Positions 59,515-64,000 of a stretch of 64,000 bases of DNA are shown here, piece by piece. Location of the stretch: the NCBI RefSeq assembly GCF_014652655.1, contig NZ_BMZF01000002.1:248001-312000 (forward strand). Reading direction: 5' to 3'. Position 1 is the first letter of the stretch, and each line of letters starts with the position of its first letter. A program made the position numbers and the translations under genes. Origin of the DNA: Paramylibacter ulvae. GTDB taxonomy: Bacteria; Pseudomonadota; Alphaproteobacteria; Rhodobacterales; Rhodobacteraceae. The notes under the pieces were generated by a model. That model was not told where the DNA came from and searched no databases. It was given only the letters and a program-made list of their open reading frames with translations.

Positions 59515-59889
59515 ATGGCATTAGTATATATTCTTGACGATAATGTTGAATTTGGCACAACACTTTGTGCGATGTGTGAAATATTTGGCCACACCGCATT
59601 GAGCGTCGCGACAACAGATGAATTCATCGCACACATGCAAAAATCAAAACCTGATTTGGTGTTGTTGGATATGTGGCTTGGCAATACGACAGGTATTGAT
59701 CTGTATAAGTCACACCGCGATATATTCGAAAATGTGCCTATTGTAATGATTTCTGGTGGTGGGCATGAAATCCCGCTAGAGGCGGTGACCGCCATGGGCG
59801 AAATCTCGGGGTTTGACGATGTGTTATACAAACCCGTAACCGCTTCCCAATTGGAAGAACTGCTTAACAAATTAATTCCGACTAAATAA
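59515..59889 (+). CDS. Single-domain response regulator (receiver only)
   Basis: A 124-residue CheY-like receiver. LVYILDDNVEFGTTLCAM has the acidic pair, LVLLDMWLGNTTGIDLY the phosphoacceptor Asp (~53), MISGGGHE the Thr/Ser position and YKPVTASQLEELL the lysine. It has no output domain. The ATG at 59515 is chosen over a TTG 6 bases upstream. The hybrid kinase at 55758 is a possible donor but lies 1.5 kb away on the other strand. The 266 bases upstream hold no other gene. Its partner is unknown. Confidence 0.88.
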   Translation: MALVYILDDNVEFGTTLCAMCEIFGHTALSVATTDEFIAHMQKSKPDLVLLDMWLGNTTGIDLYKSHRDIFENVPIVMISGGGHEIPLEAVTAMGEISGFDDVLYKPVTASQLEELLNKLIPTK

Positions 59890-59896
59890 CTCTGAT

Positions 59897-59927
59897 TTGA
59901 CATAGGTGATTATTTTTGTCAGATAAA
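59897..59927 (+). promoter_or_regulatory. Promoter with iron-responsive box before the imelysin operon
   Basis: TTGACA at 59897-59902 and AGATAA near 59921-59926 suit a sigma-70 promoter with 18-base spacing. Between them lies TGATTATTTTTGTCA (59907-59921), which fits the iron-Rhodo-box TGA-N9-TCA bound by RirA-type regulators. Placement over the spacer favours repression by iron. Confidence 0.6.
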
Positions 59928-59977
59928 GGCAACCGCGTATGCGGATTCGAATTTATCTGTTCAGAAAGACACCCGTT

Positions 59978-61231
59978 ATGAAATCATCCATCGTTGCAAT
60001 CGCTGCGGCATTGATCGCCACGCCCGTACTGGCAGACAAAGCAAGCGTCGTTGAAAACTATGCTAATATCGCCCAAGCGAAATACGAAGACAGCCTCAGC
60101 ACCGCAAAGGTATTGCAAGCGGCCGTATCCGAATTGATCGCAAACCCATCTGATGAGACATTGGCGGCGGCAAAAACTGCTTGGTTGGCTTCGCGCGTTC
60201 CGTATCAACAAACCGAAGTATATCGTTTTGGCAACGTCATCGTTGATGATTGGGAGGGCAAAGTGAATGCTTGGCCGTTGGACGAAGGTTTGATCGATTA
60301 TGTTGACGCATCTTATGGTGGCGCGACGGACGAAAATGCATTGGCTGTTTTGAATGTGATCGCGAACCCAACGCTGACAGTTGCGGGTCAAGAAATTGAC
60401 GCCACCAATATCACGCCTGAACTTTTGTCTGGTGAATTGCACGAAGCAGACGAAATCGAAAGCAATGTTGCAACGGGTTATCACGCAATTGAATTTTTGC
60501 TTTGGGGTCAAGATTTGAATGGCCACGGTGCGGGTGCTGGCGAACGCCCGGCAACAGATTACGCTGCTGGTGATGATTGCACGGGTGGCAATTGTGATCG
60601 TCGTGGTGACTATCTGCAAGCTGCAACAGATTTGTTGGTTTCAGACTTGGAATGGATGGTTGCACAATGGGAAACAGGTGGCGAAGGACGCGACGCCGTT
60701 ACAGGCAACCCAGATGCGGGTGTTCTGGCGATGCTGACGGGCATGGGTTCATTGTCTTATGGCGAACAGGCTGGCGAACGTATGAAACTTGGCCTGATGT
60801 TAAATGACCCAGAAGAGGAACATGATTGTTTTTCTGACAACACACATAACAGCCACTTTTATGATGGTTTGGGTGTGCAAAACGTATTCTTGGGCACGTA
60901 TAAACGCACAGACGGTTCTGTCGTAACGGGCGATTCACTATTTGGTTTGGTTGCCGAAAAAGACGCGGAAACCGCGGCGGCGCTGACAAATGATTTGGCG
61001 CAAACAATGTTGGATCTGGGTGCGTTGAAATCAGCGGCGGACGCTGGCTTTGCATATGATCAAATGTTGGAACGTGGAAACGAAAAAGGCGAAATGCTGA
61101 TCATGAATGCGGTCAACGGTTTGGTCGCACAAACTAAATCAATTGAACGCGCGACAACGGCGCTGGGCCTTGATGCGATTGCGTTTGAAGGTTCTGATAG
61201 CCTTGATGATCCAGACGCAGTATTTCAATAA
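59978..61231 (+). CDS. Imelysin family protein (IrpA-like, M75)
   Basis: A 417-residue periplasmic protein. The start MKSSIVAIAAALIATPVLA (signal peptide) follows AGAAAGA; the frame is open 13 codons further. NVATGYHAIEFLLWGQDLNG near residue 166 holds the GxHxxE motif of imelysins, ligands for a metal. Other signatures are VYRFGNVIVDDWEGKVNAWPLDEGLIDYVD and DCFSDNTHNSHFYDGLGVQNV. Such proteins are thought to bind iron or haem and act in uptake. It is the first gene of an operon controlled by an iron box and followed by a terminator hairpin. Confidence 0.92.
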   Translation: MKSSIVAIAAALIATPVLADKASVVENYANIAQAKYEDSLSTAKVLQAAVSELIANPSDETLAAAKTAWLASRVPYQQTEVYRFGNVIVDDWEGKVNAWPLDEGLIDYVDASYGGATDENALAVLNVIANPTLTVAGQEIDATNITPELLSGELHEADEIESNVATGYHAIEFLLWGQDLNGHGAGAGERPATDYAAGDDCTGGNCDRRGDYLQAATDLLVSDLEWMVAQWETGGEGRDAVTGNPDAGVLAMLTGMGSLSYGEQAGERMKLGLMLNDPEEEHDCFSDNTHNSHFYDGLGVQNVFLGTYKRTDGSVVTGDSLFGLVAEKDAETAAALTNDLAQTMLDLGALKSAADAGFAYDQMLERGNEKGEMLIMNAVNGLVAQTKSIERATTALGLDAIAFEGSDSLDDPDAVFQ

Positions 61232-61250
61232 ATCCATCATCAACTTTTCA

Positions 61251-61277
61251 AACGGCGTCTGTTAGGCGCCGTTTTTT
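61251..61277 (+). terminator. Internal terminator in the imelysin operon
   Basis: AACGGCG (61251-61257) and CGCCGTT (61267-61273) form a stem with a nine-base loop, followed by a T-run (61272-61277). It lies 20 bases after the first imelysin stop and before the DUF1111 gene, and would lower downstream transcription. RNA from the first gene would be more abundant. Confidence 0.7.
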
Positions 61278-61313
61278 CGTGTTAATGACGCGAAAACAAA
61301 CAAGAGTTTTCTT

Positions 61314-62825
61314 ATGAAATGGATAGCATTCAGCCTGTGCATTTGCGCAGGAATCGCCAACGCACAACCCCGCGAGCCATTCAACCTAAACATCGTGCCA
61401 CGCACTGATGAAGAGATTGAACGCGTGGCGACGATCACTGCACCCACGCATGATTTCAAACAGTCTGAACAATTTGAAACCCGCCCTGCAGGAGCAGCCA
61501 GTGTGCGTGTGCGGAGTGACAGCAATGCTTTTTCCGATTTTTCGGCGAACATTAGCTTTGCGGATGAACTGAATTTCAAACTGGGCAATGCGCTATTTCG
61601 CAAATTGTGGGTATCATCCCCGTCCAGCACAGTTGCATCAGATGGGCTTGGCCCATTGTATAACGCGCGATCCTGTCAGCGTTGCCATCTAAAAGATGGG
61701 CGTGGGCATCCACCGTTTGATGAAAATGACAGCCATGTTTCAATGTTGATGAATTTGTCACATCCCGCGCCAGTAAGGCCAGATTCAGACGCAATCAAAG
61801 ACTACATTACATCCCTGCCCGACCCAATCTATGGATCACAGTTGCAAGATTTCGCAACTCCAGGCCATCCCGCTGAAGGCCAGTTTGTCATTACCACATC
61901 TGACATAGAGGTAACGCTATCTGATGGTGTGATTGTGACGTTGCAATATCCAACCTATGCGGTCGAAAATTTGGCCTATGGTGAAATGCACCCCGATACG
62001 GTGATCGCGCCTCGTATCGCACCCCAAATGATTGGCTTGGGCATGTTAGAAGCGATACCAGCCGCCGATATTTTGGCACATGCCGATCCTGATGATGCAA
62101 ATGGTGATGGTATTTCTGGGCGGCCCAACTGGGTGTTGTCTGCGATAACACGCAAGGTTGAATTGGGTCGCTTTGGGCTAAAGGCGAGCAGCCCGACAAT
62201 TTTCGAACAATCGGCAACCGCGTTTAAGAACGATATCGGAATTTCCAGCACAGTGTTCCCCGATGGCTGGGGCGATTGTTCCGAAAATCAAACCGCGTGC
62301 CGCGCCGCGCCAGATGGCAGTACCGAAGAACACGGTAATGTTGAAATATCTGATGACGCAATGGAGTTGGTGAATTTTTATGCGCGTAATTTGGGCGTAC
62401 CCTTGCGCCGTGATTTGGATGATCCCATCGTGCTGCGTGGGAAACAGGTTTTTTATGAATCTGGATGTGTCGCGTGCCATCGTCCAAAATTTGTAACCAA
62501 CCGTTTGATGGATCAAGATGCGCAAAGCTTTCAGTTGATCTGGCCGTACACTGATATGTTGTTGCACGATATGGGCAAGGGTTTGGCAGATGGTTCAATT
62601 TCTGGTGAGGCACAGGGCAATGAATGGCGCACACCGCCGCTTTGGGGTATTGGCTTGACGCAACAAGTCAGCGACCATACGCGCTTCCTTCACGATGGTC
62701 GGGCACGTAATCTGCTAGAGGCGATTTTGTGGCACGGCGGTGAAGGTGAACATGCGAAACAACGCGTTGTTGATTTACCCACCGGCGACCGCGAGGCGCT
62801 TATAAAATTTATCGAAAGCCTGTGA
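61314..62825 (+). CDS. DUF1111 di-haem oxidoreductase
   Basis: A 503-residue periplasmic cytochrome-type protein. MKWIAFSLCICAGIANA is the signal peptide. Two haem-binding CxxCH motifs are CQRCH (residues 121-125) and CVACH (385-389). The region with DGRGHPPFDE and later DLPTGDREALIKFIESL is typical of DUF1111/thiol-oxidoreductase-like proteins related to di-haem peroxidases. Between imelysin genes it may oxidise or reduce iron. Its TGA overlaps the ATG of the next imelysin by one base. Confidence 0.9.
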   Translation: MKWIAFSLCICAGIANAQPREPFNLNIVPRTDEEIERVATITAPTHDFKQSEQFETRPAGAASVRVRSDSNAFSDFSANISFADELNFKLGNALFRKLWVSSPSSTVASDGLGPLYNARSCQRCHLKDGRGHPPFDENDSHVSMLMNLSHPAPVRPDSDAIKDYITSLPDPIYGSQLQDFATPGHPAEGQFVITTSDIEVTLSDGVIVTLQYPTYAVENLAYGEMHPDTVIAPRIAPQMIGLGMLEAIPAADILAHADPDDANGDGISGRPNWVLSAITRKVELGRFGLKASSPTIFEQSATAFKNDIGISSTVFPDGWGDCSENQTACRAAPDGSTEEHGNVEISDDAMELVNFYARNLGVPLRRDLDDPIVLRGKQVFYESGCVACHRPKFVTNRLMDQDAQSFQLIWPYTDMLLHDMGKGLADGSISGEAQGNEWRTPPLWGIGLTQQVSDHTRFLHDGRARNLLEAILWHGGEGEHAKQRVVDLPTGDREALIKFIESL

Positions 62826-63799
62826 TGCGCAAAATTTTATCGATACTCCTTGTTGTGGCATCCCCTGTTTTTGCGGGCGTTGACAAAGGTCTTGATGTCA
62901 CACTGGAACTATATCAACGTTTCGATGATACCGCCAAAAGTCTGGCGCAATCGGAATGTCGTGGCGATGAGATTATCGAAAATTACCATCGGGCGTATGA
63001 TGCGTGGAATGGTGCTAGCATTGTGTCCTTTGGTCCACTGGAACAACAAGGTGGCGCATTAGTTTTGTCGTTCTGGCCAGACAAAAAGGGTTTCACCGCA
63101 AAGGCATTATCGCAGTTAATTGCAGATCAAGATGAAGCAATTTATGCGCCTGATGAATTTGCATCCGTTTCAATCGCTGCGCATGGGTTTTTGGCGCTCG
63201 ATATGATGCTGTTTGATCAACGGTTCAATCAATTTGAACAGGATTCATATTCTTGCCAATTGGTGCGCCGCATTACCCAAGATATTGCGGATAAGGCGAT
63301 GAAAATGAATGTTGCGTGGATAAATGATTTTGCACAAACCGTGCGGGGCGCGGGCGAACCAAACAACACCACTTATTTTACCAAGGAAGAGGCGGCGCAG
63401 GCATATTTAACTTCGCTTTCTGGTGCGTTTGAATTTATCGAAACATCCCGTCTGGCGCGCCCACTTGGAACATTGGAACGCCCCCGACCCAAACGTGCAG
63501 AGGCATGGCGTTCGGCGCGCGCATTGCCCAACATCAACGCGACAATCACAGCGTTGGATCACATGATCCGTGCGTTGGGTGATGATGCTACACCAGAAAC
63601 AAATGAAACCATGGGCGCGTTGTTGCGCTTTATTCCGACCATTGACGATCCCGCATTCGCAAATATCACCGATATGGGAACACGGTTCCAAGTCGAAAGC
63701 CTACAAACAATGGTGCACAGTGCGAACGAAGCGATGAGCGTTGAGCTGGGCACACACCTGGGTGTTAACATGGGATTCAATGCATTGGATGGTGATTGA
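62825..63799 (+). CDS. Second imelysin family protein
   Basis: A 324-residue secreted protein: signal MRKILSILLVVASPVFA, then the mature protein. SIVSFGPLEQQGGALVLSFWPDKKG replaces the RFG...WPL region of the first imelysin, and AAHGFLALDMMLFD gives the GxHxxx-like position with E replaced by D, so the metal site differs. ALPNINATITALDHMIRALG is a typical helix. The start is the ATG at 62825, overlapping the DUF1111 stop. It is coupled to DUF1513 by an adjacent stop/start. Confidence 0.87.
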   Translation: MRKILSILLVVASPVFAGVDKGLDVTLELYQRFDDTAKSLAQSECRGDEIIENYHRAYDAWNGASIVSFGPLEQQGGALVLSFWPDKKGFTAKALSQLIADQDEAIYAPDEFASVSIAAHGFLALDMMLFDQRFNQFEQDSYSCQLVRRITQDIADKAMKMNVAWINDFAQTVRGAGEPNNTTYFTKEEAAQAYLTSLSGAFEFIETSRLARPLGTLERPRPKRAEAWRSARALPNINATITALDHMIRALGDDATPETNETMGALLRFIPTIDDPAFANITDMGTRFQVESLQTMVHSANEAMSVELGTHLGVNMGFNALDGD

Positions 63800-64000
63800 A
63801 TGACAACGCGACGAGTATTTTTGGCGGGATTATTGAGCGCAAGCGCGACACCGCGGTTGACGTGGGCCGATGCAGGTAGTCCGTCATTATTGGCGGCCGC
63901 CAAAGAGCCAAGCGGTACATTTGCGCTATTTGGTTTGGCCGATGATGGCAGCGAGGTTTTTCGAATTCCATTGCCAGATCGCGGTCACGCAGCCTGTGCG
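63800..64000 (+). CDS. DUF1513 protein, 5' part
   Basis: The first 67 codons of a gene cut by the window end, beginning directly after the TGA of the imelysin gene. MTTRRVFLAGLLSASATPRLTWA is a twin-arginine-like signal (RRVFL), and GTFALFGLADDGSEVFRIPLPDRGHAA follows, like the propeller start of DUF1513 proteins. In many proteobacteria imelysin, DUF1111 and DUF1513 genes form one operon, as here. The role in iron handling is presumed, not shown. Confidence 0.8.
   Translation, partial: MTTRRVFLAGLLSASATPRLTWADAGSPSLLAAAKEPSGTFALFGLADDGSEVFRIPLPDRGHAACA

Follow-up and report, generated by a model that had tools for sequence, protein, structure and literature searches.

The locus near the 3' end of the window is probably a low-iron operon of the Rhodobacteraceae type, with the gene order irpA (imelysin-1)–DUF1111–imelysin-2–DUF1513, in which IscR is predicted to act on two boxes and the products to handle iron outside the cytoplasm. 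The window, the whole stretch of 64,000 nucleotides that was analysed (C2:248001-312000), belongs to a Paramylibacter ulvae genome of 3.17 Mb in 25 contigs. The features of the locus, in window coordinates, are as follows.

59872-59900, no strand assigned: second iron box, upstream of the main one, with a CCGACTAAATAACTCTG core and overlapping the 3' end of the response-regulator gene; 19.4 (+) / 22.5 (-) bits
59897-59902, + strand: -35-like TTGACA, from sequence; most of the relatives' pairs shown have TTGAC at this position between the two boxes
59900-59928, + strand: main iron box, Iron-Rhodo-box type, with TGA-N9-TCA TGATTATTTTTGTCA at 59907-59921; 29.2 bits
59921-59926, + strand: -10-like AGATAA, from sequence, overlapping the box
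59978-61231, + strand: imelysin-1 (IrpA/ICMP type, GxHxxE) with a signal-peptide-like N-terminus; PF09375 280 bits; PDB 7xrx_A, E 5e-123
61250-61274, + strand: 11-pair terminator-like hairpin with a T run on its 3' side; RNA fold z -4.66, 0/200 shuffles as good
61314-62825, + strand: DUF1111/DHOR, putative di-haem c-type oxidoreductase or peroxidase with two CxxCH; PF06537 310 bits
62825-63799, + strand: imelysin-2 (variant GxxxxE/D, IPPA/PA4372 type); PF09375 113 bits; PDB 3pf0_A, E 2.5e-5
63800-64000, + strand, extending beyond the window to about 64882: DUF1513 with the Tat-type signal MTTRRVFLAG; PF07433 375 bits (whole gene)

All the Pfam matches pass their cut-offs, which are 23.5 bits for PF09375 (both imelysins), 22 for PF06537 and 27 for PF07433. 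They bear out the imelysin–DUF1111–imelysin–DUF1513 gene set read in the initial annotation, as do the two CxxCH of its di-haem protein and the MTTRRVFLAG start of its TAT-type DUF1513 protein; its periplasmic imelysins are supported in that all four genes are predicted to be of exported or periplasmic type. The GYHAxE motif of imelysin-1, which conforms to GxHxxE, is present in 80/80 aligned sequences, and imelysin-2 carries the GxxxxE/D variant, with the motif histidine absent in 74/75. Exactly two CxxCH are found in 76/76 aligned DUF1111 sequences, and an RR pair lies within the first 40 residues of DUF1513 in 74/75. A PDB sequence search with DUF1111 gave no match at 0.001, and its structure prediction was poor (pLDDT 65.7). 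The last three genes follow each other without gaps, with a 1-base overlap of DUF1111 and imelysin-2 and with imelysin-2 abutting DUF1513, and 82 bp separate imelysin-1 from DUF1111. Upstream of the promoter, a stand-alone response-regulator receiver gene (PF00072, 48 bits) occupies 59536-59889 and ends 7 bases before TTGACA; 3' of the four-gene set a gene resembling a short-chain dehydrogenase was read by eye. No RNA-family element reached the gathering score in the 64-kb window.

Among the matches listed, of which the best 80 were kept, the closest relatives of imelysin-1 come from Amylibacter, Pelagimonas, Halocynthiibacter and other Rhodobacteraceae, with 67-77% identity. The four genes stand in order on one strand in 73 of these best 80 named Rhodobacteraceae-type loci, and some of the other 7 are near contig ends. 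The distribution is patchy, as imelysin-1 occurs in 15/61 genomes searched (own included) and in 10/33 of the genus. DUF1513 was found in 60/299 genomes of the phylum, 55 of them above the cut-off. Around the best 29 non-own DUF1513 loci of these 60 genomes, a relative of imelysin-2 is present in all 29 and the end of a DUF1111 gene in 27. One DUF1513 gene of a relative (G109:C1:960340-961248) contains a single in-frame TAG.

The promoter lies 49 bp 5' of imelysin-1, and its TTGACA and AGATAA hexamers are spaced by 18 bp. The arrangement of TGA-N9-TCA between these two elements, pointed out in the initial annotation, was confirmed at its coordinates, although a sigma-70 scanner did not include this promoter among its predictions. 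For scoring of the box, a 29-bp matrix was refined on the 700 bp before imelysin-1 in the 80 named loci with the window left out; it comprises 53 sites, and its consensus is close to ACnTAnCyGAcTAAwTnAgTCAGnTw. By this relatives-only matrix the window site reaches 29.2 bits, which supports its reading as an iron box. The operon box fits the Iron-Rhodo-box and is presumably identical with the published 19-bp logo; the source of the Iron-Rhodo-box is Rodionov 2006, as given through PMC4618611.

The genome was scanned with a pattern derived from the matrix, followed by matrix scoring, rather than with the full matrix. This yielded 14 pattern matches, as against 4 for the reversed control. Three of the 14 reach at least 29 bits and precede hemP (32.9), an FbpA-type gene (30.1) and the imelysin operon (29.2); the next best, at 16.8 bits, lies inside a coding frame. 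The hemP gene (PF10636, 45 bits) has its own box at C2:13783, and the product of the FbpA-type gene matches the iron-binding FbpA 1q35_A with an E-value of 1e-110. Iron control of the operon is thus supported both by the matches of the box context and by the fact that the top genome matches precede iron genes. A weaker box, which scores 17.1/11.1 bits and is not among the 14 pattern matches, lies in the promoter of iscR. Beside this weak box, at L023:5437-5453 on contig C1 of the same genome, lies a perfect TTTAGAA-N3-TTCTAAA palindrome, which we take to be of the Irr/ICE type. An Irr protein is present (187.6 bits against a cut-off of 170), and the layout suggests joint control of iscR by Irr and IscR. 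Irr control through an ICE-type site was also considered for the imelysin-1 promoter and rejected: no match was found there, and the three matches in the window with up to 3 mismatches lie elsewhere, at chance level.

A working scheme can be proposed on this basis. In iron-sufficient cells, by extension from R. sphaeroides, Fe-S-loaded IscR would occupy the two boxes, which flank and overlap the -35 and -10 elements, and transcription would be blocked; when iron is short, the cluster would be lost and the genes expressed, a step drawn from the same organism and seen here at the sequence level only. Outside the cytoplasm, iron or a complex of it may be bound by the imelysins, the two-haem DUF1111 protein may give electrons to it or take them from it, and DUF1513, which the Tat route would export in the folded state, may hold a metal or dock the other proteins. 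The released iron would then reach a ferric ABC transporter belonging to this regulon, whose FbpA-type binding-protein gene carries the same box. Every functional step beyond low-iron induction is what we infer. The initial annotation had proposed a possible iron or haem uptake or reduction system of unsettled mechanism; a role in iron acquisition appears probable, and the mechanism is still unsettled. Counted against this reading, two imelysins that were assayed showed no specific binding of haem or ferric ion in the account of PMC3143127.

The gene set might instead be a periplasmic module for peroxide or redox protection, built around a di-haem peroxidase and switched on when iron or the Fe-S state changes, and not mainly an aid to uptake. 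Pfam names PF06537 'di-haem oxidoreductase, putative peroxidase', a permease is absent among the four genes, and IscR is a cluster sensor, all of which agree with such a role. We consider it unlikely, however, because hemP, bfd-bfr and the FbpA-type gene are companions in the same regulon or operon, and an uptake role has been argued from conserved context (in the account of PMC3143127).

For the low-iron operon, the identity of the regulator was addressed through the Rrf2 proteins of the genome. Seven matches were found, four of which are full-length (L010-L013), and only these were scored. The cut-off of the RirA equivalog model, 193 bits, is reached by 0/4, the best score being 128.6 (L013), with 121.8 for L011 and 107.9 for L012. 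A fit to a RirA-regulated promoter had been noted in the initial annotation, with absence of RirA from the genome named as the finding that would speak against it. The genome was examined on this point: the iron box is supported, and the assignment to RirA is not, as no full-length Rrf2 protein reaches 193 bits. Two R. sphaeroides papers (PMC4618611 and PMC3413700) likewise state that Rhodobacteraceae/Rhodobacterales have no RirA homologue. L010 has one cysteine (C140) and heads a cluster with genes for an aminotransferase V, a SufB/D-core protein and an ABC ATPase, the same position that iscR is reported to hold before the isc-suf genes of R. sphaeroides, where IscR represses the Iron-Rhodo-box genes (PMC4618611). 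IscR is therefore the likelier regulator and RirA the less likely one, with binding predicted from the box. Against IscR, L010 scores below the curated IscR cut-off (149 against 207.55 bits), and the gel shifts presented in PMC4618611 show IscR on the iscR and hemP promoters, not on an imelysin promoter.

The same low-iron operon could have its box read by a three-cysteine, RirA-like Rrf2 paralogue. Two such proteins, L011 and L013, are encoded in the genome, RirA and IscR boxes are described as similar (PMC4618611), and paralogues of RirA-like type in Paracoccus are called RirA in PMC9409073. This variant is nevertheless distinctly unlikely, given that none of the four tested Rrf2 proteins is at the RirA cut-off, that the listed ChIP-seq targets of the RirA-like RSP_3341 of R. 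sphaeroides are the nap, cycJ and dnaK promoters (PMC4344238), and that in R. sphaeroides it is IscR that is reported to bind iscR and hemP.

The significance of the box rests on its whole 29-bp context and not on the bare TGA-N9-TCA. The latter was rejected as a signal, as its 28 occurrences in the window are at chance level (shuffle mean 22.2, sd 4.4; 12/100 shuffles reach 28). TGA-N9-TCAGATAA with up to one mismatch was likewise discarded as a specific pattern (57 genome matches against 3 for the reversed control). In a Markov-1 simulation of one genome-sized sequence, the matrix found 0 matches of at least 22 bits, 2 of at least 19 and 15 of at least 16; weak boxes need care because of the last figure. 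The main box is accompanied by a second one, 28 bp upstream (59872 against 59900). Pairs were defined by a best box of at least 12 bits and a second of at least 9 bits, 20-34 bp apart, and were found in 40/53 relatives having a box, at a distance of 27-28 bp in 38 of the 40, compared with 1/1909 for centres placed at random in these regions. TTGAC stands between both boxes in most relatives' pairs, and P. ulvae has the same layout. The hemP and FbpA promoters of P. ulvae also have a weaker second box, at 35 and 24 bp. A merely accidental box, with genes that answer to another signal, is highly improbable, since the chance-level frequency of the bare motif and the commonness of its TGA-N9-TCAGATAA extension, which would favour it, are set against the score by the relatives-only matrix, the conserved spacing of the pairs and the iron genes behind all the top-scoring genome matches.

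The relatives' matrix scores in the box scan and the paired-box count are in-sample values, and the two-fold test is held-out. In that test, 21/40 and 16/40 regions scored above the 99th percentile of 631 control stretches, so that many relatives have no recognisable box directly upstream, which was counted against the IscR-controlled operon. In the box scan, L124 (29% identity) was dropped and minus-strand loci were excised roughly. Among the highest-scoring control stretches, several are located immediately 3' of imelysin-1 or immediately 5' of DUF1111 and may represent genuine internal boxes. Box-like sites just 3' of imelysin-1 were seen in a number of relatives (L069:7338, L073:7372, L086:7318, L102:7437 and others) and agree with the situation in R. 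sphaeroides, for which an internal IscR site is reported and internal boxes are described in PMC4618611. No second box was found inside the P. ulvae operon.

The gap between imelysin-1 and DUF1111 contains the terminator-like hairpin. Because the terminator scanner returned fewer sites in the stretch than in shuffles (5 against 7.6), the call rests on the strength of 61250-61274 itself. The same hairpin is present in a nearest relative (L111; z -2.80), and a stricter script placed a hairpin here in 7/81 loci, against 47/4000 random stretches. It may separate genes 2-4 from the promoter or damp them, a point counted against a single low-iron operon, and could account for the stronger response of the first genes, relative to the last ones, in R. 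sphaeroides-like cases.

The structure of DUF1513 was modelled from a homologue (L032) with 58 aligned sequences. The model is a seven-bladed propeller with a pLDDT of 94.2 and a pTM of 0.91. A fold search returned generic propellers of many functions, including designed 7-bladed proteins, lactonases, hydrazine synthase and nitrous oxide reductase, so that no function was read from it; a PDB sequence search gave a single weak match (E 0.11). Blades were assigned by strand order, and one strand, a single residue in the model, was added by hand. Five histidines are invariant in both the 58 family and the 29 phylum-wide sequences (H63, H110, H157, H221 and H353 in the numbering of the window protein). 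All five lie in the innermost strands, which make up 48/356 residues, in blades 1, 2, 3, 4 and 7, and in blades 5 and 6 an invariant Tyr and Asp precede the corresponding strands. Of two further histidines, H106 is invariant only across the phylum set and H68, in a loop, only within the family set. A tentative and somewhat doubtful interpretation of the model is that DUF1513 leaves the cytoplasm by the Tat route and, as a propeller of seven blades, binds iron or copper in its central funnel through the five invariant histidines, one per blade of five, with the invariant Asp and Tyr beside two further innermost strands. It would then constitute a periplasmic metal centre of an uncharacterised kind, acting together with the two-haem protein and the two imelysins in low-iron cells of several Pseudomonadota families. 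A literature search by the name DUF1513 found no paper. The CuZ propeller of nitrous oxide reductase is similarly seven-bladed and periplasmic, with hub histidines, and matches DUF1513 with a Z of 25.7 (5i5m_B), although this value is equalled or exceeded by many unrelated propellers. CuZ has seven histidines, compared with the five that are invariant in DUF1513. Furthermore, the DUF1513 propeller fills all 356 residues of the model and leaves no separate cupredoxin domain, unlike nitrous oxide reductase.

Among known systems, EfeUOB resembles the locus in combining an imelysin-like protein with a haem protein and in its link to iron. It differs in its EfeU permease, which was not found among the four P. 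ulvae genes of the operon, and in its EfeB, which in the E. coli type is a DyP peroxidase and not DUF1111 (PMC3577903). EfeB is described as a DUF1111 di-haem peroxidase in PMC3143127 and as a DyP peroxidase in PMC3577903. The DUF1111 and DyP families should be kept apart when the operon is compared with EfeUOB.

In Pseudomonas aeruginosa PA4370-PA4373 and Vibrio cholerae VC1264-1267, PA4373 and VC1267 are presumably DUF1513 proteins. Both clusters contain, like the present one, an imelysin, a two-haem protein, a second imelysin of the GxxxxE type and a further gene, and are reported to be iron-regulated (PMC3143127, PMC7600106, PMC5816637). PA4370-4373 is, however, described as Fur-regulated, whereas the P. 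ulvae operon has an IscR-type box instead.

A close counterpart is that of R. sphaeroides, whose equivalent genes are already placed in the IscR regulon (PMC4618611). The order reported there is hemP-irpA-bfd-bfr-RSP_1545-1543, with RSP_1545-1543 co-transcribed with hemP-irpA-bfd-bfr (PMC4618611); RSP_1548 is named an imelysin in PMC4344238. Low iron raised hemP 34.7-fold and irpA 19.7-fold (PMC3413700), and in the iscR mutant log2 increases of 2.53, 0.92 and 0.72 are given for RSP_1548, RSP_1544 and RSP_1543 (PMC4618611). The value for RSP_1545, 0.59 log2, is below the threshold of that study (PMC4618611) and was counted against the proposed operon. In the close relative Luteovulum azotoformans (L094) the genes run hemP-imelysin-bfd-bfr-DUF1111-imelysin-DUF1513, where hemP, Fer2_BFD, ferritin, imelysin and DUF1513 were identified in this order by Pfam, and imelysin-1 and DUF1111 by a separate locus comparison. 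Because of this gene order, RSP_1544 would be imelysin-2 and RSP_1543 DUF1513. The two systems share the same families, the same order as seen in L094, control by low iron and IscR, which is predicted for P. ulvae, and a box over the promoter. In P. ulvae, by contrast, hemP is elsewhere with its own box, bfd-bfr are absent between imelysin-1 and DUF1111, and inside the operon no second box was found, but a terminator-like hairpin was.

The iron-regulated-type operon is real and already known in these relatives, its function being what we infer, and the fresh point is the DUF1513 hub. Imelysin operons are widespread and iron-regulated; the P. ulvae locus points to regulation of the IscR type instead of RirA, adds a conserved promoter layout of paired boxes, and draws attention to DUF1513 as a candidate metal-binding propeller.
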